Below, in pieces: positions 23,947-59,578 of a DNA stretch of 64,000 nt. Both the position numbers and the translations under genes were made by a program. Source of the stretch: Marinobacter daqiaonensis (GTDB lineage: Bacteria; Pseudomonadota; Gammaproteobacteria; Pseudomonadales; Oleiphilaceae); assembly GCF_900115285.1 (NCBI RefSeq), contig NZ_FOYW01000001.1, positions 1,957,272-2,021,271 on the forward strand, read 5' to 3'. Position 1 is the stretch's first letter; each line of letters opens with the position of its first letter. The notes under the pieces were generated by a model that was not told the DNA's origin, did no database searches, and was given only the letters and a program-made list of their open reading frames with translations.

Positions 23947-24840
23947 ATGTTGGACGCCAGCTCTCCGCGCCAAAGAACAGTCCTGCTGATCCGCCGCTCG
24001 TTCCGGTTCGGACATCGCGTGCTGGGCCGTTTCCTCCGTAACCATGGCATTCTTCTCGCCGGTGGTGTGGGTTACAACGTGCTGCTGTCGGCGATTCCCT
24101 TGCTCGCCGTGCTGGGGGTCCTGCTGACCCATATTGTTCCGGAGGCGCAACTGGTGGAGGTCATGCGCATCCAGGCGCGGCATTTCGCGTCGGGCCATGC
24201 CGACCTGCTGCTGGAAATCGTGCAGACATTTCTGGATTCCCGGGACGTTATCGGTCTCATTGGAATCCCCGTGCTGCTGTTCTTCAGCTCCTTCGCTTTC
24301 CGGATGCTGGAGGATTCCATCGCCATCATCTTCCACCAGCCCGACACGCCGACCCGCAGTTTCTGGGTATCCGCCGCCCTGCCCTATGCTTTCATCCTGG
24401 TACTGGGCATTGGCCTGTTGACCCTGACACTGATTTTTGTGCTGGCGGATCTCTTTTACGAACGCCCGGGCATTATTCTCTACCCCCTGAGCTTTGTCAG
24501 TGTGTTCGTTCTGTTCAGCGCCATTTACAAAGTGCTTCCCATCGTCCGCATAGCGCCACGGCGGGCCGTTATAGGGGGATTTATTGCGGCCGTTCTCTGG
24601 GAGGGTACGCGGCTGATTCTGATGTACTACCTGCAGAACGTGTCCTTCGTGAATGTCATCTACGGTTCCCTGGCCACCATTATCGTCCTGCTGATCAGCC
24701 TGGAAGTGGGTGCCATCATCCTGTTGCTGGGCGCTCAGGTGATCGCGGAACTGGAACACAGCGCCGTGGCGGGACGGCCCTGGTACCAGGGCGCTGGTGA
24801 TGAGGGCCGGAAGGTTCCGGCCCCGGGCGGCAAGCAGTAG
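23947..24840 (+). CDS. YihY/BrkB-family inner-membrane protein
   Basis: 297 residues from ATG 23947; a GTG at 23887 is an alternative and neither has a clear ribosome-binding site. About six transmembrane helices. The family pattern is visible in ILLAGGVGYNVLLSAIPLLAVLGVLL, in LFFSSFAFRMLEDSIAIIF and in AVIGGFIAAVLWEGTRLILMYYLQNVSFVNVIYGSLATIIVLL. Once called ribonuclease BN in error; the role of these proteins is unsettled. It converges on the DUF2795 gene. Confidence 0.85.
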   Translation: MLDASSPRQRTVLLIRRSFRFGHRVLGRFLRNHGILLAGGVGYNVLLSAIPLLAVLGVLLTHIVPEAQLVEVMRIQARHFASGHADLLLEIVQTFLDSRDVIGLIGIPVLLFFSSFAFRMLEDSIAIIFHQPDTPTRSFWVSAALPYAFILVLGIGLLTLTLIFVLADLFYERPGIILYPLSFVSVFVLFSAIYKVLPIVRIAPRRAVIGGFIAAVLWEGTRLILMYYLQNVSFVNVIYGSLATIIVLLISLEVGAIILLLGAQVIAELEHSAVAGRPWYQGAGDEGRKVPAPGGKQ

Positions 24841-24867
24841 GTCAGCGGACTAACCAGACGGGGGGCA

Positions 24868-25074
24868 CTAACCCTCGCCAAGATCTTTCAGCACATCCTC
24901 GCTGCTGAAGTAGGTTCCTTCCGGTATGTGCTCCAGGGTATCGATGATTCGCGGATCGGCACCGTGTGCCCGTGCCTGCTCCACCAGCTCGTCGCGACTG
25001 GCGGGAAACTCCAGCCCCGCGATGGCGTCATGGGCCTGGGTATCAACACGCTTTTCAGGATCGCTCGTTGCCAT
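24868..25074 (-). CDS. DUF2795-family small protein
   Basis: 68 residues, charged and soluble. FPASRDELVEQARAHGADPRIIDTLEHIPEGTYFSSEDVLKDLG matches the DUF2795 layout (a short helical protein with L.....I....Y.S..DV). Strong ribosome-binding site GAGGAGGACATC before the ATG. A CGTTCAGCGTAC motif lies upstream. Function unknown. Confidence 0.82.
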   Translation of the reverse strand: MATSDPEKRVDTQAHDAIAGLEFPASRDELVEQARAHGADPRIIDTLEHIPEGTYFSSEDVLKDLGEG

Positions 25075-25570
25075 GATGTCCTCCTCTATCGGGTGACCGT
25101 TCAGCGTACCTCGCCTTCAGCCTAGCTTCCGGACGGGAGAATACCAAACGGTGGTGGCTCTCCGGGGCTTACCTCAAGGCCCGGCTCCGGCATTTCAGTG
25201 GAGAGGACAATTCCCTTTAAGTATATGCATATTAAATAAACAGGACTCGTTTATTTACACAATAATGCACGACATATAAGTTTTCCCACATTACGTTTAA
25301 AATCAATTTACGAACACCTTAATAACAACATAACCATATGTAAAATATAGATATTTATTGTATATTTTCCAATCAAAACCGGTGAATTCAAAGATTAATT
25401 TTTCATCAGACAGAAGAAAACCACATAAGAAAGCGCCAAACTGTGGGCCACGAACAAAAGAGCACACCAGAACCAGAGGAGCCTTTCCGAGGCCTCCACC
25501 AAACAGCGAGTGCCCCCATAAGCTGAGCGCTGCCATTACAAGGGAATATAAACCAGGGAGAAGGAGCTTC
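25075..25570. other. AT-rich leader upstream of the murA-like operon
   Basis: About 500 bases with no gene. Bases 25215-25400 are strikingly AT-rich for this genome. They contain a perfect inverted repeat AAATAAAC/GTTTATTT (25234-25241 and 25249-25256) and ATATGCATAT just before it. The stretch may hold a promoter silenced by a nucleoid protein, or mark the edge of acquired DNA. A strong ribosome-binding site (AAGGAG) closes it. Confidence 0.5.
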
Positions 25571-26851
25571 ATGAAATACGATATGTTGGTGGAAGGTGGC
25601 CAGATTCCCTCGGGCAAGGTCAAGGTCAGTGGAGCGAAAAACTCCGCCACCCGTCTGTTGGCGGCTTCACTGCTGACCGACGAGCCTGTGCGTATCCGTA
25701 ACTTCCCCACCCAGCTGGTGGATGTGGTGGAGAAGATCGGCTTTATCCGGAAGCTGGGTGCGCGGGTGGAGGTGGATGACGAACGGGAGTTCCTGGAGAT
25801 CCTCACCCCCGGCCTGTCCTGCAAGACCATTGATGACTGGGAACTGCCGATACGGACCACCTACCTGCTCACGGCCGGTCAGATCGTTCGCAACGGCATC
25901 GCGCGGATTCCCTACCCCGGCGGCTGCAAGATCGGCGCGCGAGGCTACGATCTTCACATGATGGTCTGGAAGGCACTTGGCTGTGAGGTCAGGGAGGAGG
26001 AGAGCTACATCCAGGTGAACGGCTCCTTTCGCGGCGGCTCCGTCGACTTCCCGATTTCGACCGTGGGCGGCACCGAAAACGCGCTGATGTGTGCATCGGT
26101 GGCAACCGGCACCACGGAAATCCGCAATGCCTATATCACCCCGGAAGTGGAAGACCTGATCGACATGCTTCAGCAGATGGGCGCGGGCATCGAGAATTTC
26201 GGTAACAGCCTGATTCGGGTCCGTGGCATGGGGGGGCTCATGCGCGGGGCGTCGTTCGAGGTCATGCCGGACCGTATCGAAGCCCTCACATGGATCGTTT
26301 TCGCGGCCATGACCGGCGGCGACGTTTACATCAAGGGTGTGCCGTTCAGGCATATGAAGGTCCCTCTCCTCCACCTTGAGGAAGCGGGGCTTGATCTCTA
26401 TCGCAACTCCCACTCGGTGTTTGTCTCGGGGGAGAGCATTCAGGGCCAGGGTATCCAGCCATTCGAACTGGCCTGCGGCACCCATCCGGGCGTCATCTCC
26501 GACATGCAGTCTTTCTATGTTCTGCTTGGCATGAAGGCGAACGGCATTTCCCGTACCTTTGACTATCGTTACCCTGAACGAATCGCCTATGCCCGGGAAC
26601 TCAGCCGTTTCAATGCCGATGCCATTGCCTGCGAGCCAGGCAAGATCACCACGTTCGGCATCGCCAGCCTCAAAGGCGCCGATGTGACCTCCACCGACCT
26701 TCGTGGCAGCATGGCCCTGGTAATGGCCGCCTTCTGCGCCGACGGCCAGAGCCGCATCAAGGATGTGCACATGGCCATGCGTGGCTACAACGGCCTGCTG
26801 GACAAGCTCAAGACCCTGGGCGTTCATGCCTCTCTCATTGAAACCGGGTAA
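25571..26851 (+). CDS. murA: MurA-type enolpyruvyl transferase, probable paralogue
   Basis: Transfers enolpyruvate from PEP to a UDP-GlcNAc-like acceptor. 426 residues. MurA landmarks: SGAKNSATRLLAASLLTDEPVRI (Lys/Asn pair at about 23-24), the fosfomycin-target loop PGGCKIGAR with Cys near 119, PDRIEALTW, SDMQSFY (catalytic Asp near 312), STDLRGSMALVMAAF and RGYNGLLDKLKTLG (Arg near 405). All catalytic residues are kept, but the sequence between them is quite unlike the housekeeping enzyme, and essential murA is not normally beside a murB. It is followed after 4 nt by a murB-type gene and then a glycosyltransferase. I infer a dedicated supply of a MurNAc-type sugar nucleotide. Confidence 0.82.
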   Translation: MKYDMLVEGGQIPSGKVKVSGAKNSATRLLAASLLTDEPVRIRNFPTQLVDVVEKIGFIRKLGARVEVDDEREFLEILTPGLSCKTIDDWELPIRTTYLLTAGQIVRNGIARIPYPGGCKIGARGYDLHMMVWKALGCEVREEESYIQVNGSFRGGSVDFPISTVGGTENALMCASVATGTTEIRNAYITPEVEDLIDMLQQMGAGIENFGNSLIRVRGMGGLMRGASFEVMPDRIEALTWIVFAAMTGGDVYIKGVPFRHMKVPLLHLEEAGLDLYRNSHSVFVSGESIQGQGIQPFELACGTHPGVISDMQSFYVLLGMKANGISRTFDYRYPERIAYARELSRFNADAIACEPGKITTFGIASLKGADVTSTDLRGSMALVMAAFCADGQSRIKDVHMAMRGYNGLLDKLKTLGVHASLIETG

Positions 26852-26855
26852 GGCC

Positions 26856-27926
26856 ATGGACCAACAGCGGAAACCGGAAATCTTCGACTATCGCTCGGTA
26901 CTCGGTGATCTCCGTGCACTGTCACCCAACGGGGTGTTCACGAATATCGACCTCGCCGGTCTGAGCCGCTGGCGGGTGGGCGGCCGGGCCGACTGCGTGG
27001 TTGCACCCAGGAGCCTGACGGAAATCCGGGAACTTATGGGCTACATCCACCGTCACGGGATTCCCTACGTTGTGCTGGGCTCGAGCTCCAACCTGATGTT
27101 TGCCGACCAGGGACTGCGCGCCCTCGGTGTGCATTTTGGCGCCGGCTTTGCGGACATGCGTATTTCCGGCAGCTCGGTCTGGAGCCAGAGCGGCGTATGG
27201 GTTCCGGAGTTCGCCCGAAGGCTCGCCCGGTCGGGGCTCGAGGGCGGCGAACACATCTGCGGGATTCCCGGCACTCTGGGCGGCCTGATCTACATGAATG
27301 GCGGCAGTCAACGCAAGGGTATCGGCGACAATATTGTGGAAGTCACAACCGTCACGCCAACCGGGAGCCTGAGGCGCTACGACCGGAAAGCCTGTGACTT
27401 CCGTTACCGTCGCTCGTGTTTCCAGTCCTCCCCGGAAATCATTGTGGAGGCTCGCTTCGAGTTCACCTACACCGGCCAGGTGGGGGCCATCCGTCGCAGC
27501 ATGCTCGAGATTCTCGGCCAGCGAAGGCGCAAGTTTCCGAGAAAACTCCCCAACTGCGGCTCTGTCTTCGTCAGTAATCCGGCCATGTATGAGGATTACG
27601 GCCCCCCCGGGGCGGTGATTGAACAATGCGGCCTGAAGGGCCTTCGCCGTGGCGGCGCCCAGGTCTCCAGCCTTCACGCCAACTTTATTGTGAACACAGG
27701 GAATGCGACCGCCAGTGATCTGCTCTACCTGATTGAAAAGATCAGGACAACGGTCCGACACCGCACAGGTTACGATATGCCATCCGAAGTTTTGTACGTT
27801 ACCCCTGAAGGCCGAATCGTTCAGGCCCACGAGCAGGCCCGCCAAATGTTCGGGGGATCACCGCCAGGGGATGAGGCGCAACCGCACCCGGACCCTGTTG
27901 GCACCGGGATGCCCAGACTGGTTTGA
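26856..27926 (+). CDS. murB: MurB-type UDP-enolpyruvylglucosamine reductase, probable paralogue
   Basis: FAD/NADPH enzyme that reduces the enolpyruvyl group to lactyl, giving a MurNAc nucleotide. 356 residues, coupled to the upstream murA-type gene. FAD-binding features: WRVGGRADCVVAPRS, VVLGSSSNLMFAD, GGEHICGIPGTLGGLIYMNGG. Catalytic Ser in LPNCGSVFVSNP; AQVSSLHANFIVNTGNATASDLLYLI follows; the Glu of MPSEVLYV fits the C-terminal catalytic acid. The short YRRSCFQ segment suggests the type II (Gram-positive-like) MurB class, whereas gammaproteobacterial housekeeping MurB is usually type I. This supports an accessory role. The last 35 residues are a proline-rich tail. Confidence 0.82.
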   Translation: MDQQRKPEIFDYRSVLGDLRALSPNGVFTNIDLAGLSRWRVGGRADCVVAPRSLTEIRELMGYIHRHGIPYVVLGSSSNLMFADQGLRALGVHFGAGFADMRISGSSVWSQSGVWVPEFARRLARSGLEGGEHICGIPGTLGGLIYMNGGSQRKGIGDNIVEVTTVTPTGSLRRYDRKACDFRYRRSCFQSSPEIIVEARFEFTYTGQVGAIRRSMLEILGQRRRKFPRKLPNCGSVFVSNPAMYEDYGPPGAVIEQCGLKGLRRGGAQVSSLHANFIVNTGNATASDLLYLIEKIRTTVRHRTGYDMPSEVLYVTPEGRIVQAHEQARQMFGGSPPGDEAQPHPDPVGTGMPRLV

Positions 27927-27973
27927 GACTTCGATCTCGCCGGCAGGAAACCGTCCTTGAAAGAGCCGTTGCC

Positions 27974-29179
27974 ATGAAAACCATCGTTTTCTTTCTTTCG
28001 TCCTACTCCACGATCAATACCGGTGTCGGCGGGCACTACCGCTCCCTGAAGGAAATCGCATCGATCCTTCAATCGGATTTCGATGTACGCATTTTCACTT
28101 TCGGAAACGTGCCGTCCCCTATCCTGCAGCAGCTCGACTGCTACCGGCATGTTGAGACAGGACCACTGGTTTCCCCGGGCACATGGCGCACCCTTCGCAA
28201 CCTCAGAAAGGAGCTGTCATTCGAGCCGGACAGGGAGGTGCTTTATGTCACGGTGGGTGACCTTATCTGTTACGTGCCCATCCTGTTATGCCTGGGGCTA
28301 GGCTCCGGGCCTGTCGCCCACCTGAAGCCCGGCGGACCGGTATTCCCCAGGAGTTATATGTTCAACGGTTTGCCGCTGATGGTCTTCCACCGGCAGGACT
28401 ACCGGCTATTCGAGGCCCATGACAGCAAGCGGCCCCTGGCGCTGGCGCCAGGCCGGGTCTCGCCGCCCCCCTATGACCGCGAGTACCTCAACCACGCCGT
28501 GCCGCGACTTATCGGGGCTCAGGAAGGTCAACTTCGACTGCTGACAATTTGCCGGATCGCGGAAGAGAAGGCGACCTCACTGTCGGTCATGTACGGGGCT
28601 CTGGAAAACCTGGAGGGCAGTCCTGTTTCCACTCACATCGGTGTGCTTCAGAGCAGGAGCGTGCTGCACCGGCTGGAGCAGCACCGGCTTGCGTTCAGTC
28701 ACGAGATTCTGGTGGACGATGACGTGGTGGACACAGCGGCCAGGGCGATCCACGCCTGCGATCTGTTTATCGGCCTGGGCCGGTCCGCAATGGAAGCCAT
28801 GGCCCTGGGGAAAATCGCTTTCGTGCCGGTCAGGGACAGGGAAGGGGCTCCCCGCCTGGTAGCGGTAACCCGCCAGAACTGGCGCATCTTCCAGCATCAC
28901 AATTTTACCGACCGAACCCCGATGGACGAACTGGAAGCGACCGGAGAGCCCCTGTTCATCGAGGACGTGGTCGGTGACTTCGATCACCACCAGCATCTGG
29001 GGCAGGAAGGCCAGGACATCTTCCGGGAGCACCTGTCCATCGAAACATCGGCGTCCGCCTGGCGCCAGTTCTACGACGATGCCACGGGTTTCAGGGTCTC
29101 ACGGCTAAGGGATCTTTTTCGGGTGTGCTACTTCGTGGCAATGGCCCTCAAACGCCAGCTGAAACCGATCAAGCGCTGA
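27974..29179 (+). CDS. GT4-like (GT-B fold) glycosyltransferase
   Basis: 401 residues from ATG 27974, 47 nt after the murB-type gene; the ribosome-binding site is weak. The N-terminus MKTIVFFLSSYSTINTGVGGHYRSLKEIA is the first Rossmann strand and glycine loop of GT-B enzymes. The second half has RLLTICRIAEEKATSLSVMYGAL and CDLFIGLGRSAMEAMALGKIAFVPV, the donor-binding EAMA..K region. No transmembrane helix, so probably a peripheral membrane enzyme using a nucleotide sugar. Context suggests it uses or modifies a MurNAc-type product of its neighbours; the acceptor is unknown. Confidence 0.75.
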   Translation: MKTIVFFLSSYSTINTGVGGHYRSLKEIASILQSDFDVRIFTFGNVPSPILQQLDCYRHVETGPLVSPGTWRTLRNLRKELSFEPDREVLYVTVGDLICYVPILLCLGLGSGPVAHLKPGGPVFPRSYMFNGLPLMVFHRQDYRLFEAHDSKRPLALAPGRVSPPPYDREYLNHAVPRLIGAQEGQLRLLTICRIAEEKATSLSVMYGALENLEGSPVSTHIGVLQSRSVLHRLEQHRLAFSHEILVDDDVVDTAARAIHACDLFIGLGRSAMEAMALGKIAFVPVRDREGAPRLVAVTRQNWRIFQHHNFTDRTPMDELEATGEPLFIEDVVGDFDHHQHLGQEGQDIFREHLSIETSASAWRQFYDDATGFRVSRLRDLFRVCYFVAMALKRQLKPIKR

Positions 29180-29251
29180 ACCGGTCCAGGGCCAGTGTTA
29201 TTCAGCCTACCTTCGAATGATCCGCATACAATTTTGTGCAGTACCTACTAC

Positions 29252-29257
29252 TATAAT
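29252..29257 (+). promoter_or_regulatory. Candidate -10 element for the mltF gene
   Basis: A consensus TATAAT lies 37 nt before the proposed TTG start at 29289. A transcript from here would begin near 29264, after the ATG at 29262, which argues against the longer reading frames. No clear -35 hexamer is visible. Confidence 0.45.
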
Positions 29258-29288
29258 AGACATGTCCCACTACAAATCAGGAGATGGC

Positions 29289-30659
29289 TTGGCTTACCCG
29301 ACAGTCCTCAAACGACTCCTGGTCGCCGGGATCACGGCAACCCTGGCCGGCTGTGGAGACGCCAAAGAGCCCGAGTTGGTGGTGATGGAGTCGCCGTTCG
29401 AAACCGGCGTGCTGAAAGTCGCCACCCGCAACGGCTCGACCACCTACTACCTCGACCGCCATGAAAATTCGGCCGGACCCGAGTACTCCCTGGTGTCGGA
29501 CTACGCCGAAGCCCGGGGGTGGGAGGTGGAGTGGACCATGCTGGAGTCCACAGCCGATGTGCTGAAGGCGCTCAAGTCCGGCACCACACACCTGGCAGCA
29601 GCGGGACTGACCCACCTGGACTCCCGGGATGAACAGTTTGTCCGGGGCCCGGCCCATACCGAGATCGTCGAGCAACTGGTGTGCCACCGGGATCACCGAC
29701 CCCTGCCCCGCACCGCGGAGGAGCTCCCCGGCACGGAAATCGTTGTCACCGCCGGCGCCAGCTACGTGGAAACCCTGGACGGCCTCGCGCAGGTCCATCC
29801 CGGCGTTGAGTTCACTGAAGACAGCGAGCGGACCACCGAAGTGCTGCTCTCGGAAGTTGCGGAGCAGGCCATTGGCTGCACGGTAGCCGATTCCAATATT
29901 GTCCAGGTGATGCGCCGCCACTTCCCACACCTTGAAATCGCGATGAACCTGACCGGGGGTAACAACCTGGGCTGGTACCTACCCGCCGGGTCGGAAGACC
30001 TGGCTGGCGATGCGAGGAGGTGGATGAGCAGCATTGAGGGTGACGAAGCCATTGGCCTCATGGAAAATCGCTATTATGCGTACATTGGCGACTTCGACTT
30101 TGTTGACCTGCGGGCACTGAACCGTCGGATCGAGGACCGGCTCCCCCGGTTCATCGCCGAGTTCGAGAAAGCCGAAGCGGAAACCGGCGTACCGGCGGAC
30201 CTGCTGGCCGCCCTTGCCTATCAGGAATCCCACTGGGACCCGAACGCTGTCTCGCCTACGGGCGTTCGCGGCATCATGATGCTCACCCTGCCCACAGCCA
30301 AGTCACTGGACGTGACCAACCGGCTGGACCCCCGCCAGGCCATCGATGGAGGCGCCCGGTATCTTGCGGACCGGCACCGCAGGCTTCCGGACACCATCCC
30401 GGAACCAGACAGGACCTTCCTGGCCCTGGCCAGCTACAATATCGGCCGTGGCCACCTGCTGGATGCGCGAAGCCTCGCCCGCAAACTCGGCAAAAATCCG
30501 GACTCCTGGGCAGAGATGAGAACCGTGCTTCCCCTCAAGGCCGACAAACGCTACTACCCCAACACACGCTACGGCTACGCCCGAGGCTACGAGCCGGTGC
30601 ATTATGTGCAGCGCATCCGCAACTATCGCGATGTGATCCGGCCGGCATTCAGTCAGTGA
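29289..30659 (+). CDS. mltF: MltF-type membrane-bound lytic murein transglycosylase (lipoprotein)
   Basis: Cleaves peptidoglycan glycan strands with 1,6-anhydro-MurNAc formation. 456 residues from TTG 29289, chosen because AGGAG sits 5 nt upstream and it yields a compact lipoprotein signal (KRLLVAGITATLAGC, lipobox Cys near residue 22); ATGs at 29217 and 29262 only add a non-signal extension. An SBP_bac_3-like regulatory domain spans about 35-270 (GVLKVATRNGSTTYY...LAAAGLTHL). The SLT domain from about 300 has the catalytic Glu in AYQESHWDPNAVSPTGVRGIMML and ASYNIGRGHLLDAR. It follows the murA/murB/glycosyltransferase genes, probably from its own promoter. Confidence 0.88.
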   Translation: MAYPTVLKRLLVAGITATLAGCGDAKEPELVVMESPFETGVLKVATRNGSTTYYLDRHENSAGPEYSLVSDYAEARGWEVEWTMLESTADVLKALKSGTTHLAAAGLTHLDSRDEQFVRGPAHTEIVEQLVCHRDHRPLPRTAEELPGTEIVVTAGASYVETLDGLAQVHPGVEFTEDSERTTEVLLSEVAEQAIGCTVADSNIVQVMRRHFPHLEIAMNLTGGNNLGWYLPAGSEDLAGDARRWMSSIEGDEAIGLMENRYYAYIGDFDFVDLRALNRRIEDRLPRFIAEFEKAEAETGVPADLLAALAYQESHWDPNAVSPTGVRGIMMLTLPTAKSLDVTNRLDPRQAIDGGARYLADRHRRLPDTIPEPDRTFLALASYNIGRGHLLDARSLARKLGKNPDSWAEMRTVLPLKADKRYYPNTRYGYARGYEPVHYVQRIRNYRDVIRPAFSQ

Positions 30660-30824
30660 AAGCAGGACCACAACAGCAATTCGCTGACTGCGGCTGAACA
30701 TGGGGCAAGACTCATTCCGACGTTATCTTGGCATTGCCCGCCAAACCTTCTATTGTGCTCTGGTTTCTGTATTTCCCTCACTTTTCGGCCGGGCGCCGAA
30801 ACGACAATAAAAAAAGGAGAGATC

Positions 30825-31586
30825 ATGGACGTAGCAAATCGCATCGTAGTGGTGACCGGCGCGGCCGGTGGAATCGGCAGGGCCCTGGCAATCCGCTTCG
30901 CCCAGGCCGGCGCGAAAAAGGTCATCTGTGCCGACCTGGATGGCGAAGGGGCCGAAGCAACGGCAGCTGAAATCAATGGCATCGGCCGCAAGGTCAATGT
31001 CGCCAATGAAGATGAGATCAGGAGCCTGATCGACGATATCGAAGCCAGCGAAGGCCCCATCGACCTGTTCTGTTCCAACGCCGGCATCATGGAGCCGGGC
31101 GGCCCCGAGGCCTCCAACGAGGCATGGCAGCGTATCTGGGACATCAACGTCATGGCCCACGTTTACGCCGCACGGCACCTGGCACCGGTCATGATCCAGC
31201 GCGGCGGTGGCTACTTCCTCAACACCGCTTCCGCCGCAGGCCTGCTTTCCCAGGTGGGCTCCGCGCCCTATTCCGTCACCAAGCATGCTGCCGTCGCCCT
31301 CGCGGAGTGGCTGGCGTTCACCTATGCGGACGATGGCATCAAGGTGTCGGTGCTATGCCCCCAGGCGGTCCGTTCCGCCATGACCCGGGGCCATGAGGAC
31401 GGTGTGGCGAGTGTCGACGGCATGCTGGAGCCGGAACCCGTGGCCGATGCCTGCCTCAAGGCTATCGAAGAGGAAACCTTCCTGGTACTGCCTCACCCCA
31501 ATGTCCTCCAGTACTTCCGCAACAAGGCGGAAAACTATGATCGCTGGATCGGCGGCATGAAGAAACTGAACCGCATCTATAAGTGA
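30825..31586 (+). CDS. Short-chain dehydrogenase/reductase
   Basis: 253 residues from ATG 30825, preceded by AAAAAGGAGAG. Classical SDR: cofactor loop TGAAGGIGRALA, acidic residue after strand two (CADLDGEG, suggesting NAD preference), CSNAGIM, catalytic Ser in NTASAAG and YSVTK. A C-terminal ENYDRWIGGMKKLNRIYK tail is present. Substrate not evident. A hairpin follows the stop codon and the next gene is about 170 nt away. Confidence 0.87.
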   Translation: MDVANRIVVVTGAAGGIGRALAIRFAQAGAKKVICADLDGEGAEATAAEINGIGRKVNVANEDEIRSLIDDIEASEGPIDLFCSNAGIMEPGGPEASNEAWQRIWDINVMAHVYAARHLAPVMIQRGGGYFLNTASAAGLLSQVGSAPYSVTKHAAVALAEWLAFTYADDGIKVSVLCPQAVRSAMTRGHEDGVASVDGMLEPEPVADACLKAIEEETFLVLPHPNVLQYFRNKAENYDRWIGGMKKLNRIYK

Positions 31587-55541: not shown

Positions 55542-57812
55542 CTAGCGGGTCTCAGTCGTATCCCGATCAAACCACCATTCCGGCAACAGGTTCCTGTTCG
55601 CCGGCTGCAGGAAACGGTCATCGATCAGCCAGATCACGCCTTCATCCTGCGGGGTGCGAATCACCCTTCCCGCTGCCTGGGCGACTTTCTGCAGGCCGGG
55701 GATGCGGTAGGTGTAGTCGTAGCCGGCACCGAAGCGTTCCTCCAGCCGGGTCCTGAGTACCTCGTGCCAGGGGTCGAAGGGCGGCAGGCCCAGGGTGGCC
55801 ACAAAGGCCCCGATCAGCTGGTCCCCGGGCAGATCGATGCCCTCACTGAACACGCCCCCCAGCACGGCGAACGCCACGGCCGGTTCCGGTTGTCGGAAGC
55901 CCGCCAGGAAATCGGCCCGCTGCGCCTGGCTCATACCCGGTCTCTGGGGACGCTGGGGGATATCCGGGGCAATGTGGGCCAGGGCTTCGGTGACCTGCTC
56001 CAGGTAGCGAAAACTGCTGAAAAAGGCCAGATAGTGCCCCGGGCGTTCACGGAACTGGCCGGCAATCAGCTCGGCAATGGGTTCCAGCGACCGTTCCCGG
56101 TCGGGCTGGCGGGTACTGATGCGCGGGGTGAAGTGAACCTGCAGCTGGTCCGCGCTGAAGGGGCTGGGAAGCGAGGTAAACCGGGTGTCTTCCGCCAGGC
56201 CCAGCAGATCCCGGTGGTAGACGCCGGGGGTGAGGGTGGCGGAGAACAGCAGCACCGAAGCCGCCGCCCGGAACCGGTCCCGCAGGAAGTCCGCCGGTAT
56301 CAGGTTCTGCAAGGTCAGGCTGGCCCTGCCACGACCGGCCCGCTGGTACTCGCACAGGGAGTGGTCGCCAAACTGATCCGCCAGTTTCATGAAGGCCACG
56401 CTCTCGAACAGCAGCTCCTGCAGCGCCAGATCCGGCGGGTTGTCCGCCAGATAGTCAGTCAGACCGGACACCAGTCCTTGCAGGCTGCCGGTGAGCTGTC
56501 CGGGAAGTGACTTCAGGAACACCGGTTCGGAGCTGTCCACGCCCTGTTCGCTGATCACCTCCTGCCAGGCTTTTGCCACCCGATTCATTGGCGCTTTCAG
56601 GGGCCTGGGCGCTGTCCGGCGGACCCGCAGCAATCGTTGCTGGTCCAGCCTTACCGAGTACATGCCCCGGGCCCGGTCCACCAGGTTGTGGGCCTCGTCC
56701 ACCAGCACGCCGGCCTTCCACTGGTTCTGACGAACCAGGGCATGTAGCAGTGCGCTCTGGTCGAACATTCGGTTCACGTCGGCCACCACCACATCGCTCC
56801 AGCGGGCCATCTCCTGGCCCAGGAAATAGGGACAGATGTCGTGGCCGGCCGCAATTTCAGCCAGCCGTTCACGGCTCAGGGGCCCCTGTACCCGGGCCGC
56901 TTCCGCCCGGGCATCCGGAAGACGGTCAAAAAAGCCCCTTGCCAGTGGACAGGCGTCGCCGTGGCAGGCCTTGTCCGGGTGCTCGCAGGCGTCGTCCTTC
57001 GCCACCAGCTCCAGGGTCCTCAGTGGCCAGTGGTGGGGATCCGGCTGGGCCTGCCGCAGGGCTTCGGTGGCGCCCATGGCCAGCTCGCGGGCGGTATTGC
57101 GGCAGGTCAGATAGAACAGGCGGTCCTGGCCGGCGGCCGGCATGGCCATCAGCGCCGGGAACAGGGTACCCAGGGTCTTGCCCAGTCCCGTCGGTGCCTC
57201 CAGCAACAGGGATCGGGACTGTACGGCATTGCGGTAAACGGTTTCCGCCAGCCGTCGCTGCCCGGCCCGGAACTCGTCGAATGGGAACCGCAGCTGCCCG
57301 AGGCGCTGGTCCCGGGCCTGGCGATGACGATCCTCCTGTTCGGCCCAGGCCCGGAAGGCGCTGCACAGGGCTTCCAGCTCGCGCCATAGCTCGTCGGCGG
57401 TGGCGGTTTCCGTGACCGGGCTTTCCCTGTTACGTCCCGTGTCGTAGTACACCAGCGCCAGGGTCACGGATTTCAGGTTTTCCTGGCGGCAAAGCAGGGC
57501 GCCATAGGCCCGTAACTGTGCCCGATGGAGGGCACGCTGATGGTCGCGGATGCGGGAAAGGTCGCCGCGGTGGGTCTTGATTTCCTCCAGCAGGGGCTTG
57601 TGAGGGTTGTACACATCTGCCCGGCCAGTGAGTTCGATACCCAGGCAGTTTCCGGTGAGTGAGAACTCACTCTTATAGCCGTAGCCACGGCTTGCCTGCA
57701 CCGCCTGATGGCCGGCAATTCCCTCCTCACTGGAGGGGGCCGGGGTGTAGCGGAAGTCCAGGTCACCGCGCCGGGCGGCAAACTCGCAAAGGGTTCGAAC
57801 CGCCACTTTCAC
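55542..57812 (-). CDS. DinG/XPD-like helicase with N-terminal RecB/Cas4-type nuclease domain
   Basis: 756 residues from GTG 57812, chosen because GGAG is 8 nt upstream and the start overlaps the FAN1-like stop (GTGA). Residues about 30-125 carry PD-(D/E)XK nuclease motifs: His35, Asp66 (LTGRADVYNP), Glu77 and Lys79 (LEEIKTH), and Q99-Y103 (AQLRAYG). The helicase follows: Walker A EAPTGLGKT; iron-sulfur cysteines CEHPDKACHGDACPLA and CPYFLGQEM; VDEAHN; VLLFSATL; FFSSFRYLEQV; and QAAGRVIRTPQDEG. A fused nuclease and 5'-3' helicase, translationally coupled to a structure-specific nuclease. Confidence 0.9.
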   Translation of the reverse strand: MKVAVRTLCEFAARRGDLDFRYTPAPSSEEGIAGHQAVQASRGYGYKSEFSLTGNCLGIELTGRADVYNPHKPLLEEIKTHRGDLSRIRDHQRALHRAQLRAYGALLCRQENLKSVTLALVYYDTGRNRESPVTETATADELWRELEALCSAFRAWAEQEDRHRQARDQRLGQLRFPFDEFRAGQRRLAETVYRNAVQSRSLLLEAPTGLGKTLGTLFPALMAMPAAGQDRLFYLTCRNTARELAMGATEALRQAQPDPHHWPLRTLELVAKDDACEHPDKACHGDACPLARGFFDRLPDARAEAARVQGPLSRERLAEIAAGHDICPYFLGQEMARWSDVVVADVNRMFDQSALLHALVRQNQWKAGVLVDEAHNLVDRARGMYSVRLDQQRLLRVRRTAPRPLKAPMNRVAKAWQEVISEQGVDSSEPVFLKSLPGQLTGSLQGLVSGLTDYLADNPPDLALQELLFESVAFMKLADQFGDHSLCEYQRAGRGRASLTLQNLIPADFLRDRFRAAASVLLFSATLTPGVYHRDLLGLAEDTRFTSLPSPFSADQLQVHFTPRISTRQPDRERSLEPIAELIAGQFRERPGHYLAFFSSFRYLEQVTEALAHIAPDIPQRPQRPGMSQAQRADFLAGFRQPEPAVAFAVLGGVFSEGIDLPGDQLIGAFVATLGLPPFDPWHEVLRTRLEERFGAGYDYTYRIPGLQKVAQAAGRVIRTPQDEGVIWLIDDRFLQPANRNLLPEWWFDRDTTETR

Positions 57813-59509
57813 GGGCCGAACTCCGGCTCCTGCCACCGGACATGGCAGACCCGCGCCGCAATCCCCTGGCGGTCAAAGAACGCCAGCCAGCGCCGCTGGT
57901 GGTCCTGCAGGCGATCACCGGGGCCTTTCACCTCGATCATTTCGTACCGTTGCGCTGGCTCGGGGTGGTCCGGAACAAACCGGATCAGGTCCGGGAAGCC
58001 GCTGCGGTGCTCCTTCAGGTTGGCCAGCAGACGCCGGAACAGGACCTTGAGGTGGACCGGTGGAATGCAATGGAGGGCCATCTCCAGAAGCGGCCCGGAA
58101 AGCACCTGCCAATGGACGAAAGGGTTGGCCAGGCCCTGCTTCCGGCGCCAGGTGGTGAGGATGGTGTCGCGGTAGGCGTCCGTGTCCAGCTGGCGGAAGC
58201 AGGCTTCCAGCAGATCCCGGCGACGGGAAACAAAGTCCTCCCGGGTCAGGTCCGCCGGCCCCACATGGAAGGGATGGAAGAAAGCACCGGGCATCGGCGT
58301 GAAAATCACCTCCCAGCACAGCAGCCCGAAAAGGCCATTGATCAGGGTATTCTCCACATAGACCACCGGGCACTCGTCCGTGGTCAGGTGTTGCTGCACC
58401 AGCCACTCCACCGGGCCCGGCTCAGGCAGGATCAGGGTGAAGGTCTCGGGAACGGGGGTATCGTCCAGTGGCGGTGCCGGTTCGCCAACCTTTTTGGATA
58501 ACCGCTTGAGCAGGCGCCCGAGACCCTGGGCCTCGGCGTCGCTCAGGTCCTGGTCATGCCAGTTCCGGGCAATGGCCCAGGCCTCGTCGAAACGCTTCAT
58601 GCGCTCCAGCAGCCTGAGCTGCTTCAGGCGGGCTTCCCGGTGATGACTCCCCGCCAGGGCCTCCAGCGCCAGCTCCGGTTCTCCCTGGCGTTCCGCCTGA
58701 CGCCCCAGCTCCAGCAGCAGTCGGTCGCGGCGACTGGCGAGCCAGGCGTTATCCGCAGGATCCGGCACCTGGCCCCAGACATCAGGGGCGGCCACCCCGG
58801 CATCCAGCTGCTCCCGGCACTGGTGCATCACCAGGTAGCAGTCTACATCCCCCCGGTCATGGAATGCCCGGCTCCGGGGTGAGAGGGGGACGGTTTCATA
58901 CTGCTGGTAGCCCAGCTCCACCAGCACGAAGTCAGACCAGCTCTGTCGCAAGTTGCCAAAGAACATCAGTCGGACCCGGTCGAACAACGCCATGTAGCGC
59001 AGACGCACCACCGGATGGCGGTCATGCCCGAGCCACTTGCTCACGGGCCGGGGATCCGGGAACTCCCCCGCCAGCAGCGCTTTCATCCTCCCCTTGGGAA
59101 GGCCGGAGGGATGGCCAAGAGACTTGAGGGTGGCGGCAAAGGCCGGGCGCAGTTCCGCCAGGGTAAACAGGCGAAACAGGTCGTCCAGCGTCAGTTCAGG
59201 ATTGTCTTCAAGCCACCCCCTGGTGCCCAGCTCCATTAGCGCCCTGGCTTCGGAGTCGGGTAGCTCGGGATACTTGAACTTGTCCAGGCGAAACAGCTCA
59301 CCGGTTCGCATCACCATTCGGGTCAGCAGGGCACGGGCGGAAACCGACAGGTTGCCGAAGGCGGCCAGACGATCGCATTCATCCTGTGTCAGCAGGTCAG
59401 CGTGGTGACCGGCCACCCAGGTGACAACAGTTTCCATATTGGCCAGGTAATACAGCGGATCGGCAAGGTCGGCGGTCTGCGGCCGGGCCTGCGGGTGCGA
59501 ATCGGTCAT
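57809..59509 (-). CDS. FAN1-like structure-specific nuclease (VRR-NUC)
   Basis: 566 residues from ATG 59509; there is no clear ribosome-binding site, and a TTG at 59524 is possible. The C-terminal VRR-NUC domain has GFPDLIRFVPDH and YEMIEVKGPGDRLQDHQRRWL, the PD...ExK nuclease core. The upstream region has a helical/TPR-like part (ALEALAGSHHREARLKQLRLLERMKRFDEAWAIA) and a SAP-like part (SLGHPSGLPKGRMKALLAG), as in bacterial FAN1. Such enzymes cut branched and crosslinked DNA. The gene precedes and overlaps the nuclease-helicase gene. Confidence 0.9.
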   Translation of the reverse strand: MTDSHPQARPQTADLADPLYYLANMETVVTWVAGHHADLLTQDECDRLAAFGNLSVSARALLTRMVMRTGELFRLDKFKYPELPDSEARALMELGTRGWLEDNPELTLDDLFRLFTLAELRPAFAATLKSLGHPSGLPKGRMKALLAGEFPDPRPVSKWLGHDRHPVVRLRYMALFDRVRLMFFGNLRQSWSDFVLVELGYQQYETVPLSPRSRAFHDRGDVDCYLVMHQCREQLDAGVAAPDVWGQVPDPADNAWLASRRDRLLLELGRQAERQGEPELALEALAGSHHREARLKQLRLLERMKRFDEAWAIARNWHDQDLSDAEAQGLGRLLKRLSKKVGEPAPPLDDTPVPETFTLILPEPGPVEWLVQQHLTTDECPVVYVENTLINGLFGLLCWEVIFTPMPGAFFHPFHVGPADLTREDFVSRRRDLLEACFRQLDTDAYRDTILTTWRRKQGLANPFVHWQVLSGPLLEMALHCIPPVHLKVLFRRLLANLKEHRSGFPDLIRFVPDHPEPAQRYEMIEVKGPGDRLQDHQRRWLAFFDRQGIAARVCHVRWQEPEFGP

Positions 59510-59578
59510 AGGGGATGGGGACAAAACCTGCTTTCGGGGGAACCAGAGTGCTCACTTTACGACGACCGGGCGCCCACC

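Follow-up and report, generated by a model that had tools for sequence, protein, structure and literature searches.

What is a second MurA-MurB pair for? The question is raised by a locus of Marinobacter daqiaonensis in which a gene for a divergent MurA-type enolpyruvyl transferase (here murA2) stands next to one for a MurB-type reductase (murB2), followed by a predicted glycosyltransferase gene and by the gene for the lytic transglycosylase MltF. The locus was analysed within a stretch of 64,000 nucleotides (positions 1,957,272 to 2,021,271 of the forward strand of contig NZ_FOYW01000001.1, assembly GCF_900115285.1), called the window throughout and numbered from its first letter. MurA and MurB are treated as peptidoglycan markers and drug targets, and databases name MurA2 and MurB2 likewise. 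We propose that the pair and its glycosyltransferase probably make a 3-O-lactyl sugar carried on uridine diphosphate (UDP), with UDP-N-acetylmuramic acid (UDP-MurNAc) as the most probable product, for a cell-surface polysaccharide and not for peptidoglycan. This role is favoured because most of the relatives that we examined lie in polysaccharide gene clusters. The features of the locus (aa, amino acids) are:

25571..26851, plus strand: murA2, divergent UDP-sugar enolpyruvyl transferase, 426 aa (PF00275, NF006873, own clade)
26856..27926, plus strand: murB2, type II-like enolpyruvyl reductase, 356 aa (TIGR00179, FAD_binding_4, MurB_C)
27974..29179, plus strand: predicted GT-B glycosyltransferase with a GT4-like fold, 401 aa (structure model, no sequence family)
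29217..30659, same direction: MltF (NCBIfam NF008112)
25120..25570, no strand assigned: A+T-rich stretch between genes that may hold the promoter of the three-gene unit (G+C content, promoter-like matches)

All four reading frames are open, uninterrupted and run in one direction, with gaps of 4 bases between murA2 and murB2 and of 47 bases between murB2 and the glycosyltransferase gene. Frames, profiles and a structure model thus confirm the order given in a preliminary description of this DNA, which had read adjacent, divergent MurA- and MurB-type genes, then a GT-B glycosyltransferase, then a lytic transglycosylase.

Results

murA2 and murB2 are accessory copies

PF00275 has three matches in the genome (3.93 Mb in 8 contigs, completeness 100): murA2 itself, a 754-aa open frame of AroA-like sequence and, at C8:1166894, one further MurA. 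MurB_C has two, murB2 and a gene at C8:804383 (C, G, L, P and H numbers are our own labels). The window genes are accessory copies because the genome holds one other MurA and one other MurB. The preliminary description had already taken them to be so, and the second murA and murB recovered by profile search bear it out. These other two genes lie 362 kb apart; among their neighbouring open reading frames (ORFs), inspected by eye, the canonical murA adjoins hisG, hisD and hisC, and the canonical murB, of type I, is ~1.5 kb from an LpxK-like gene. Identity between the window proteins and the canonical ones of the same genome is 35% for MurA and 26-27% for MurB.

Both enzymes keep their catalytic residues and form separate clades

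MurA2 of the window matches PF00275 far above the cut-off (195 bits) and passes the subfamily model NF006873 (349.7 bits vs a cut-off of 297); it misses the murA equivalog TIGR01072 (334.5 bits vs 392.7). The residues that we take to be the catalytic set of MurA (K22, N23, R91, C115, R120, D305, D369, R371 and R397, all positions in E. coli numbering) are kept, together with R331 and L370, in 29/29 MurA2 rows and in 13/13 canonical rows of the motif comparison. C115 and D305 are named for MurA in the accessible part of PMC12844806. The sugar site is where the two sets part: the canonical loop [VI]327-F328-E329-N330 is replaced by R-[YF]-P-[EGKQD] in all 29 MurA2 rows (RYPER in the window), [VI]FENR is kept in all 13 canonical rows, and R-[YF]-P-x-R occurs in none of the latter. 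E188 is changed to T, S or R in 29/29 MurA2 rows, and P121-V122 to [GKTA]-[YF]. Residues 160, 163, 188, 327 and 328 are listed among MurA binding-site contacts in the docking tables seen of PMC11628175 and PMC10816260.

MurB2 of the window matches PF01565 (FAD_binding_4) and PF02873 (MurB_C) far above the cut-offs, passes the murB equivalog TIGR00179 (180.5 bits vs a cut-off of 144.5) and just misses PRK13905 (257.5 vs 259). Y158, R159, S229 and E325 are kept in 26/26 MurB2 rows, so that the catalytic intactness which had been read from motifs for both window proteins holds. The loop after the catalytic serine is GS[VT]FxS[ND]P in all 26 rows, one residue longer than the GS[FVT]F[KR]NP of type I and type II MurB (24/24 rows, with the extra residue in 0/24).

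A quick maximum-likelihood tree, with SH-aLRT support only, was built from 38 MurA rows. Its canonical rows were gammaproteobacterial (three further MurAs, from Sphingomonas, Neisseria and Paenibacillus records, served for the motif comparison outside the tree). In it, 21 window-like MurA2 rows formed one group (support 99) and six more distant rows, termed A2b, another (97). The two groups joined (98), apart from 10 canonical MurAs (87). MurA2 thus lies in a clade of its own, separate from the housekeeping MurA. An equally quick tree of 51 MurB rows, again with SH-aLRT support only, separated 26 MurB2 (99), 15 type II (99) and 9 type I rows (100). MurB2 adjoins type II (88) but falls outside the housekeeping type II clade; the earlier impression of a type II MurB is therefore right as to the nearest neighbour and wrong as to membership.

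Most relatives lie among polysaccharide genes

We read the gene neighbourhoods of 20 loci (the window, L006, L007, L035, L036, L070-L075, L100, L127-L129, L132, L133, L135, L138 and L145), which span Marinobacteraceae, other gammaproteobacteria, rhizobia, Rhodobacterales plasmids and one metagenome-assembled genome (MAG) of Bacteroidetes; H35-H37, three more Rhizobium plasmids that carry the pair, are not among them. For each locus a Pfam scan was run on one or a few genes, with an initiating transferase (PF02397), flippases (PF13440/PF01943), PF04932, the export family PF02563 and PF02706 as assembly markers. Polysaccharide assembly genes were found in 17 of the 19 loci besides the window (L006, L007, L035, L036, L070-L075, L127-L129, L132, L135, L138 and L145). 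The preliminary description had offered three uses of the pair, namely supply of a MurNAc-type nucleotide to a special glycan, recycling, or modification of murein; these 17 loci support the first. No support was found for the recycling route or for a modified murein, neither of which was directly tested. AmgK and MurU are, as we assume, the marker genes of MurNAc recycling, and no sugar kinase or nucleotidyltransferase of this type was recognised among the ORFs between 20000 and 36000, which were inspected by eye and not by profile search.

murA2 and murB2 are adjacent in 17/20 loci, window included (murA2 leading in 15, murB2 in L007 and L135). Conservation of gene order, which the preliminary description had put forward as a check, thus extends to the pair; it does not extend to the glycosyltransferase, found in 1/163 genomes of the family Marinobacteraceae, or to MltF, which occurs independently. 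Besides the adjacent pairs, L073:7047-10813 and L036:585-4234, the latter on a contig of 4.4 kb, keep murB2 and its glycosyltransferase with no adjacent murA2, and an unpaired MurA2 lies on another contig of G124 (L100:10829-12202). A hexapeptide (acetyl)transferase gene (Pfam Hexapep) is directly upstream of murA2 in L074, L075 and L133, and perhaps adds a further modification step on the same sugar.

A glycosyltransferase of family GT2 accompanies murB2 in 11 of 19 loci (L036, L070-L073, L075, L129, L132, L133, L138 and L145), nine of which have both mur genes; one gene intervenes in L072, and in L132 the GT2 gene is upstream of murA2 on the opposite strand. In the pairs compared (L132 and L145 as targets only, L036 as query only) these partners matched each other at E 2e-31 or better, against 5e-12 for the best other ORF of the loci read, and by sequence they are one coherent family. 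The 11 partners (e.g. L070:8542-9534 and L133:12279-13250) share a motif [HQM][GS][SA]GD, where one aligned control GT2 has D-A-D-D; the motif may mark donor specificity.

The window unit has a different, predicted glycosyltransferase

The glycosyltransferase of the window matches none of the 11 GT2 partners. Neither Pfam nor NCBIfam profiles match it at E 0.001, and relaxing the threshold to E 5 brought up nothing but an unrelated DUF (0.026). An AlphaFold2 model built from an 8-row alignment reached pLDDT 84.3 and pTM 0.82 as the best of five (pLDDT 68-75 in the other four). Its best Foldseek match is PimA (2gej, E 1.4e-11, TM-score 0.59), followed by others such as BshA, MshA and WaaG; 224 matches to PDB structures pass E <= 0.001, headed by GT4-type enzymes. 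The 401-aa protein is accordingly predicted from its model to be a GT-B glycosyltransferase of the GT4 kind.

Seven homologues of this protein were found in a database of 5.8 billion proteins, and no match in plasmids. For three of the seven, the longest contigs (14,631, 148,804 and 201,874) have the same sizes as those of the MurA2 homologues P0133, P0135 and P0141, which suggests linkage of these glycosyltransferases with MurA2; the three sizes are absent among the best 120 of 2,748 MurB matches.

The pair is patchy in genomes and recurs on plasmids

At E 1e-30, MurB2 was found in 9/163 Marinobacteraceae genomes, or 8 (our own included) after removal of G069. Seven of the eight also have MurA2; the eighth, G033, is 62% complete. 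Across the class, MurA2 was found in one of 369 genomes at E 1e-72, that of M. daqiaonensis. Only this genome counts because the second match, in G344, carries the canonical loop VFENRF; the cut-offs of the class survey could miss distant A2b members. MurB matches at E <= 1e-30 were obtained in 229/369 class genomes and, our own genome apart, were set aside as canonical enzymes, not MurB2. The best of them beyond our own genome (G334, E 7.3e-55) sits in a mraY-murG-murC-ddl cluster, as judged by eye, and the 15 class-survey matches placed in the tree are the type II clade.

Wider relatives occur in a Bacteroidetes MAG and on a Rhizobiales contig. Plasmid relatives from Haematobacter, Qingshengfaniella, Agrobacterium and five Rhizobium make up 8/10 plasmid records with MurB2 at E 1e-40; the remaining two, from Paenibacillus and Bacillus, are 33-34% identical. 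MurA-like genes were also seen in 41 phage records, with 33-34% identity for the 10 rows that were listed; certain of these genes may be host DNA within the records.

G069 carries an adjacent MurA-like/MurB-like pair of another kind (L076:3340-5504), 28% and 33% identical to that of the window and with very long branches. It was excluded from all family counts and retained in both trees; in the MurB tree its long branch meets type I, with a warning from the tool. By eye, the pair lies beside serine-hydrolase-like, GSCFA-like and Nudix-like genes, with no recognisable polysaccharide cluster, and is perhaps a third use of MurA/MurB.

MltF is an independent neighbour

MltF of the window passes NF008112 (464 vs 354 bits). 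A copy at 72-80% identity is present in 25 of 60 other genomes of the genus (G027 has a 68% fragment), and a second paralogue, at 34-40%, in most genus genomes. None of murA2, murB2 and the window glycosyltransferase stands beside MltF in the 19 copies read over ~1.5 kb on each side, nor were mur genes or this glycosyltransferase found beside it in L130 and L131, read over 12-14 kb. The neighbourhood of a short-chain dehydrogenase/reductase (SDR) gene and MltF recurs in one of the 19 (L105/L130), arranged differently. MltF was considered as a functional partner of the pair and rejected, since its copies occur independently of the mur genes; because the genus copies read lack mur genes beside them, we regard it as a chance neighbour of the unit.

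Candidate polymers and surroundings in the M. daqiaonensis genome

The genome has one PF02397 gene. Its cluster is of the XrtA/PEP-CTERM type: NCBIfam models of that system (TIGR03027, TIGR03007 and TIGR03006) are passed by the encoded export, chain-length and deacetylase proteins. In G556, the pair lies ~5 kb from an initiating transferase, an export and a chain-length protein that are 47%, 46% and 36% identical to those of this cluster. We infer the XrtA polymer to be the first candidate for the window pair because of this proximity to XrtA-like initiation, export and chain-length genes. In biofilms of M. atlanticus, PEP-CTERM proteins have been linked with biofilm and exopolysaccharide, according to the part of PMC8233155 available. 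An O-antigen-like cluster was recognised by eye, with Wzz above the cut-off at C8:1128530; like the XrtA cluster, it is distant from the window locus, and remnants of MurA2, MurB2 or the glycosyltransferase are absent from that region.

On the minus strand of the window, positions 55542-59524 hold a helicase-like gene and a second gene that are 63% and 57% identical to two genes beside a polysaccharide cluster in G170 and G173. They lie ~28 kb from murB2 and perhaps mark an old cluster site. In G170 the cluster contains the pair itself, with a MurA2 and a MurB2 that share 87% and 70% identity with the window proteins.

Upstream of murA2, the stretch 25120-25570 has a G+C content of ~45%, vs ~60% in its surroundings, and contains five of the six promoter-like matches of 24800-31000 (two on the plus and three on the minus strand); these are consensus matches only and are favoured by A+T content. 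No RfaH/ops element GGCGGTAG was found near murA2, the three in the window being matched by 23/100 shuffles, and none of the six window sites with a sigma-54-like pattern is upstream of murA2. Searches for Rfam families (gathering threshold), transfer RNA genes and tandem repeats gave no matches.

Discussion

We infer the enzyme activity, the product and the polymer of the pair from sequence. MurA2 would transfer the enolpyruvyl group of phosphoenolpyruvate to the 3-OH of a UDP-sugar, as its kept catalytic residues suggest; MurB2 would reduce the enolpyruvyl product to a lactyl ether with flavin adenine dinucleotide (FAD) and NADPH; and the glycosyltransferase, to judge from its predicted fold, would pass the sugar to a glycan that is lipid-linked or still growing. 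UDP-MurNAc would most likely be this sugar, ahead of other lactyl sugars, since the pair has the same catalytic residues as MurA and MurB. Standing alone with a different transferase, the window unit presumably feeds the XrtA/PEP-CTERM exopolysaccharide or the O-antigen.

Several observations weigh against such a role in a surface polysaccharide. The window has no PF02397 or PF02706 match, and no flippase, polymerase or export gene was recognised in it by eye; the XrtA cluster is ~221 kb from murA2 and free of mur genes; and no characterised protein is related in sequence to the window glycosyltransferase. Few genomes have the unit (MurA2 in 5/390 genomes of the order at E 1e-75), and the loci read are interdependent, with near copies in L070/L071, L073/L036 and L138/L145. 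Among them, L133 is a stand-alone plasmid cassette (acetyltransferase-murA2-murB2-GT2) without assembly genes, in L100 murA2 is unpaired and genes of RmlD, epimerase and GT2 type lie 7-10 kb from it, and L036 and L073 have murB2 without murA2. Finally, the changed sugar-site loop implies that UDP-N-acetylglucosamine (UDP-GlcNAc) may not be the acceptor of MurA2.

It is the last of these points that gives the strongest rival its footing: MurA2 and MurB2 could lactylate another UDP-sugar, for example UDP-glucuronic acid to give 3-O-(1-carboxyethyl)-glucuronic acid, as in deep-sea Alteromonas exopolysaccharides. We hold this to be possible, if rather unlikely. The replacement of [VI]327-F328-E329 by R-[YF]-P in every MurA2 row and the change at E188 speak for it, as do a UDP-glucose dehydrogenase and/or an NAD-dependent epimerase near the pair in several loci. 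However, UDP-glucose dehydrogenase is frequent in polysaccharide clusters anyway, which counts against the argument, and none was recognised near the window genes; the remaining catalytic residues are MurA-like, and the loop change might serve regulation instead. The expected product does exist in nature, since 3-O-(1-carboxyethyl)-glucuronic acid is found in marine exopolysaccharides (accessible part of PMC2901825).

A spare or condition-specific isozyme pair that boosts UDP-MurNAc for murein seems improbable to us. The intact catalytic residues, the score of MurB2 above the murB equivalog cut-off and the adjoining lytic transglycosylase gene would suit it, but MurA2 scores below the murA equivalog cut-off, 17/19 relatives' loci have polysaccharide genes, the distribution is patchy (8/163 family genomes) and MltF is independent of the pair. 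We give very little credit to a nucleoside-type secondary metabolite route like that of nikkomycin, in which MurA2, like NikO, would have a nucleotide as its acceptor. NikO offers a precedent, as it resembles MurA, uses another acceptor and is detected by sequence (PMC6801904, seen in part), but inspection by eye revealed no peptide or nucleoside synthesis genes near the window genes or their relatives, and the MurB and GT2 partners indicate a sugar product. That the unit is a stranded, useless remnant of a polysaccharide cluster is just as hard to credit. It stands alone, is patchy, has its nearest relatives in clusters and lies in the same window as homologues of the two G170/G173 cluster-flanking genes, at what may be an old cluster site; against this, its three genes are uninterrupted, the active sites are conserved and the stand-alone form recurs on a plasmid (L133).

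Synthesis of a lactyl sugar for a surface polysaccharide, as we prefer, allows a further and bolder idea, which we advance tentatively: MurA2-MurB2-GT2 could be the missing module for lactyl-ether sugars in bacterial polysaccharides. The first two enzymes of peptidoglycan synthesis would have been duplicated and altered in the sugar pocket for another UDP-sugar (e.g. UDP-glucuronic acid), and the resulting exchangeable exopolysaccharide cassette would have reached several phyla, at times, as in the window, standing alone and with its transferase exchanged. If the polysaccharide role is true, some annotated second copies of MurA and MurB are not cell-wall enzymes, muramic-acid or lactyl-ether sugars of exopolysaccharides gain a genetic route that can be tested, and the signatures R-[YF]-P-x-R (MurA2) and GS[VT]FxS[ND]P (MurB2) can be used to spot such polymers in genomes.

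Comparison with known systems

With the MurA and MurB of peptidoglycan synthesis, the pair shares its sequence family, its catalytic residues and, presumably, its chemistry (enolpyruvyl transfer and FAD-dependent reduction). It differs from them in forming its own clades, in the replaced sugar-site loop of MurA2 and the longer loop of MurB2, in the adjacency of the two genes and in the polysaccharide context of the relatives. NikO is likewise a MurA-type enzyme recruited outside peptidoglycan synthesis; according to the part of PMC6801904 seen, both are enolpyruvyl transferases, MurA acting on UDP-GlcNAc and NikO on uridine monophosphate (UMP). The difference is that NikO uses its UMP acceptor in an antibiotic pathway, whereas the partners in the window are a MurB and a glycosyltransferase. 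The product kind and a MurA-like enzyme outside peptidoglycan are thus known, and a MurA-MurB pairing there was not found in the literature seen, parts of papers for the most part; among the literature matches listed, no title or start of an abstract describes a polysaccharide-dedicated MurA-MurB pair, which is weak evidence of absence. One exopolysaccharide study, PMC12492903, does mention both enzymes in its text.

Clusters of the Wzx/Wzy type, including XrtA/PEP-CTERM clusters, host most of the relatives read, whereas the window unit stands alone and the XrtA cluster of its own genome is free of mur genes. The closest likeness on the side of the product is to the lactyl-ether sugars of marine bacteria: the Alteromonas HYD657 exopolysaccharide contains 3-O-(1-carboxyethyl)-D-glucuronic acid, and that of strain 1644 contains 3Lac-GlcA (PMC2901825, accessible part). 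These sugars are known as chemistry, and the same part of PMC2901825 names no gene for them; MurA2 and MurB2 would be expected to give a product of this sort, a 3-O-lactyl sugar that becomes part of an exopolysaccharide.

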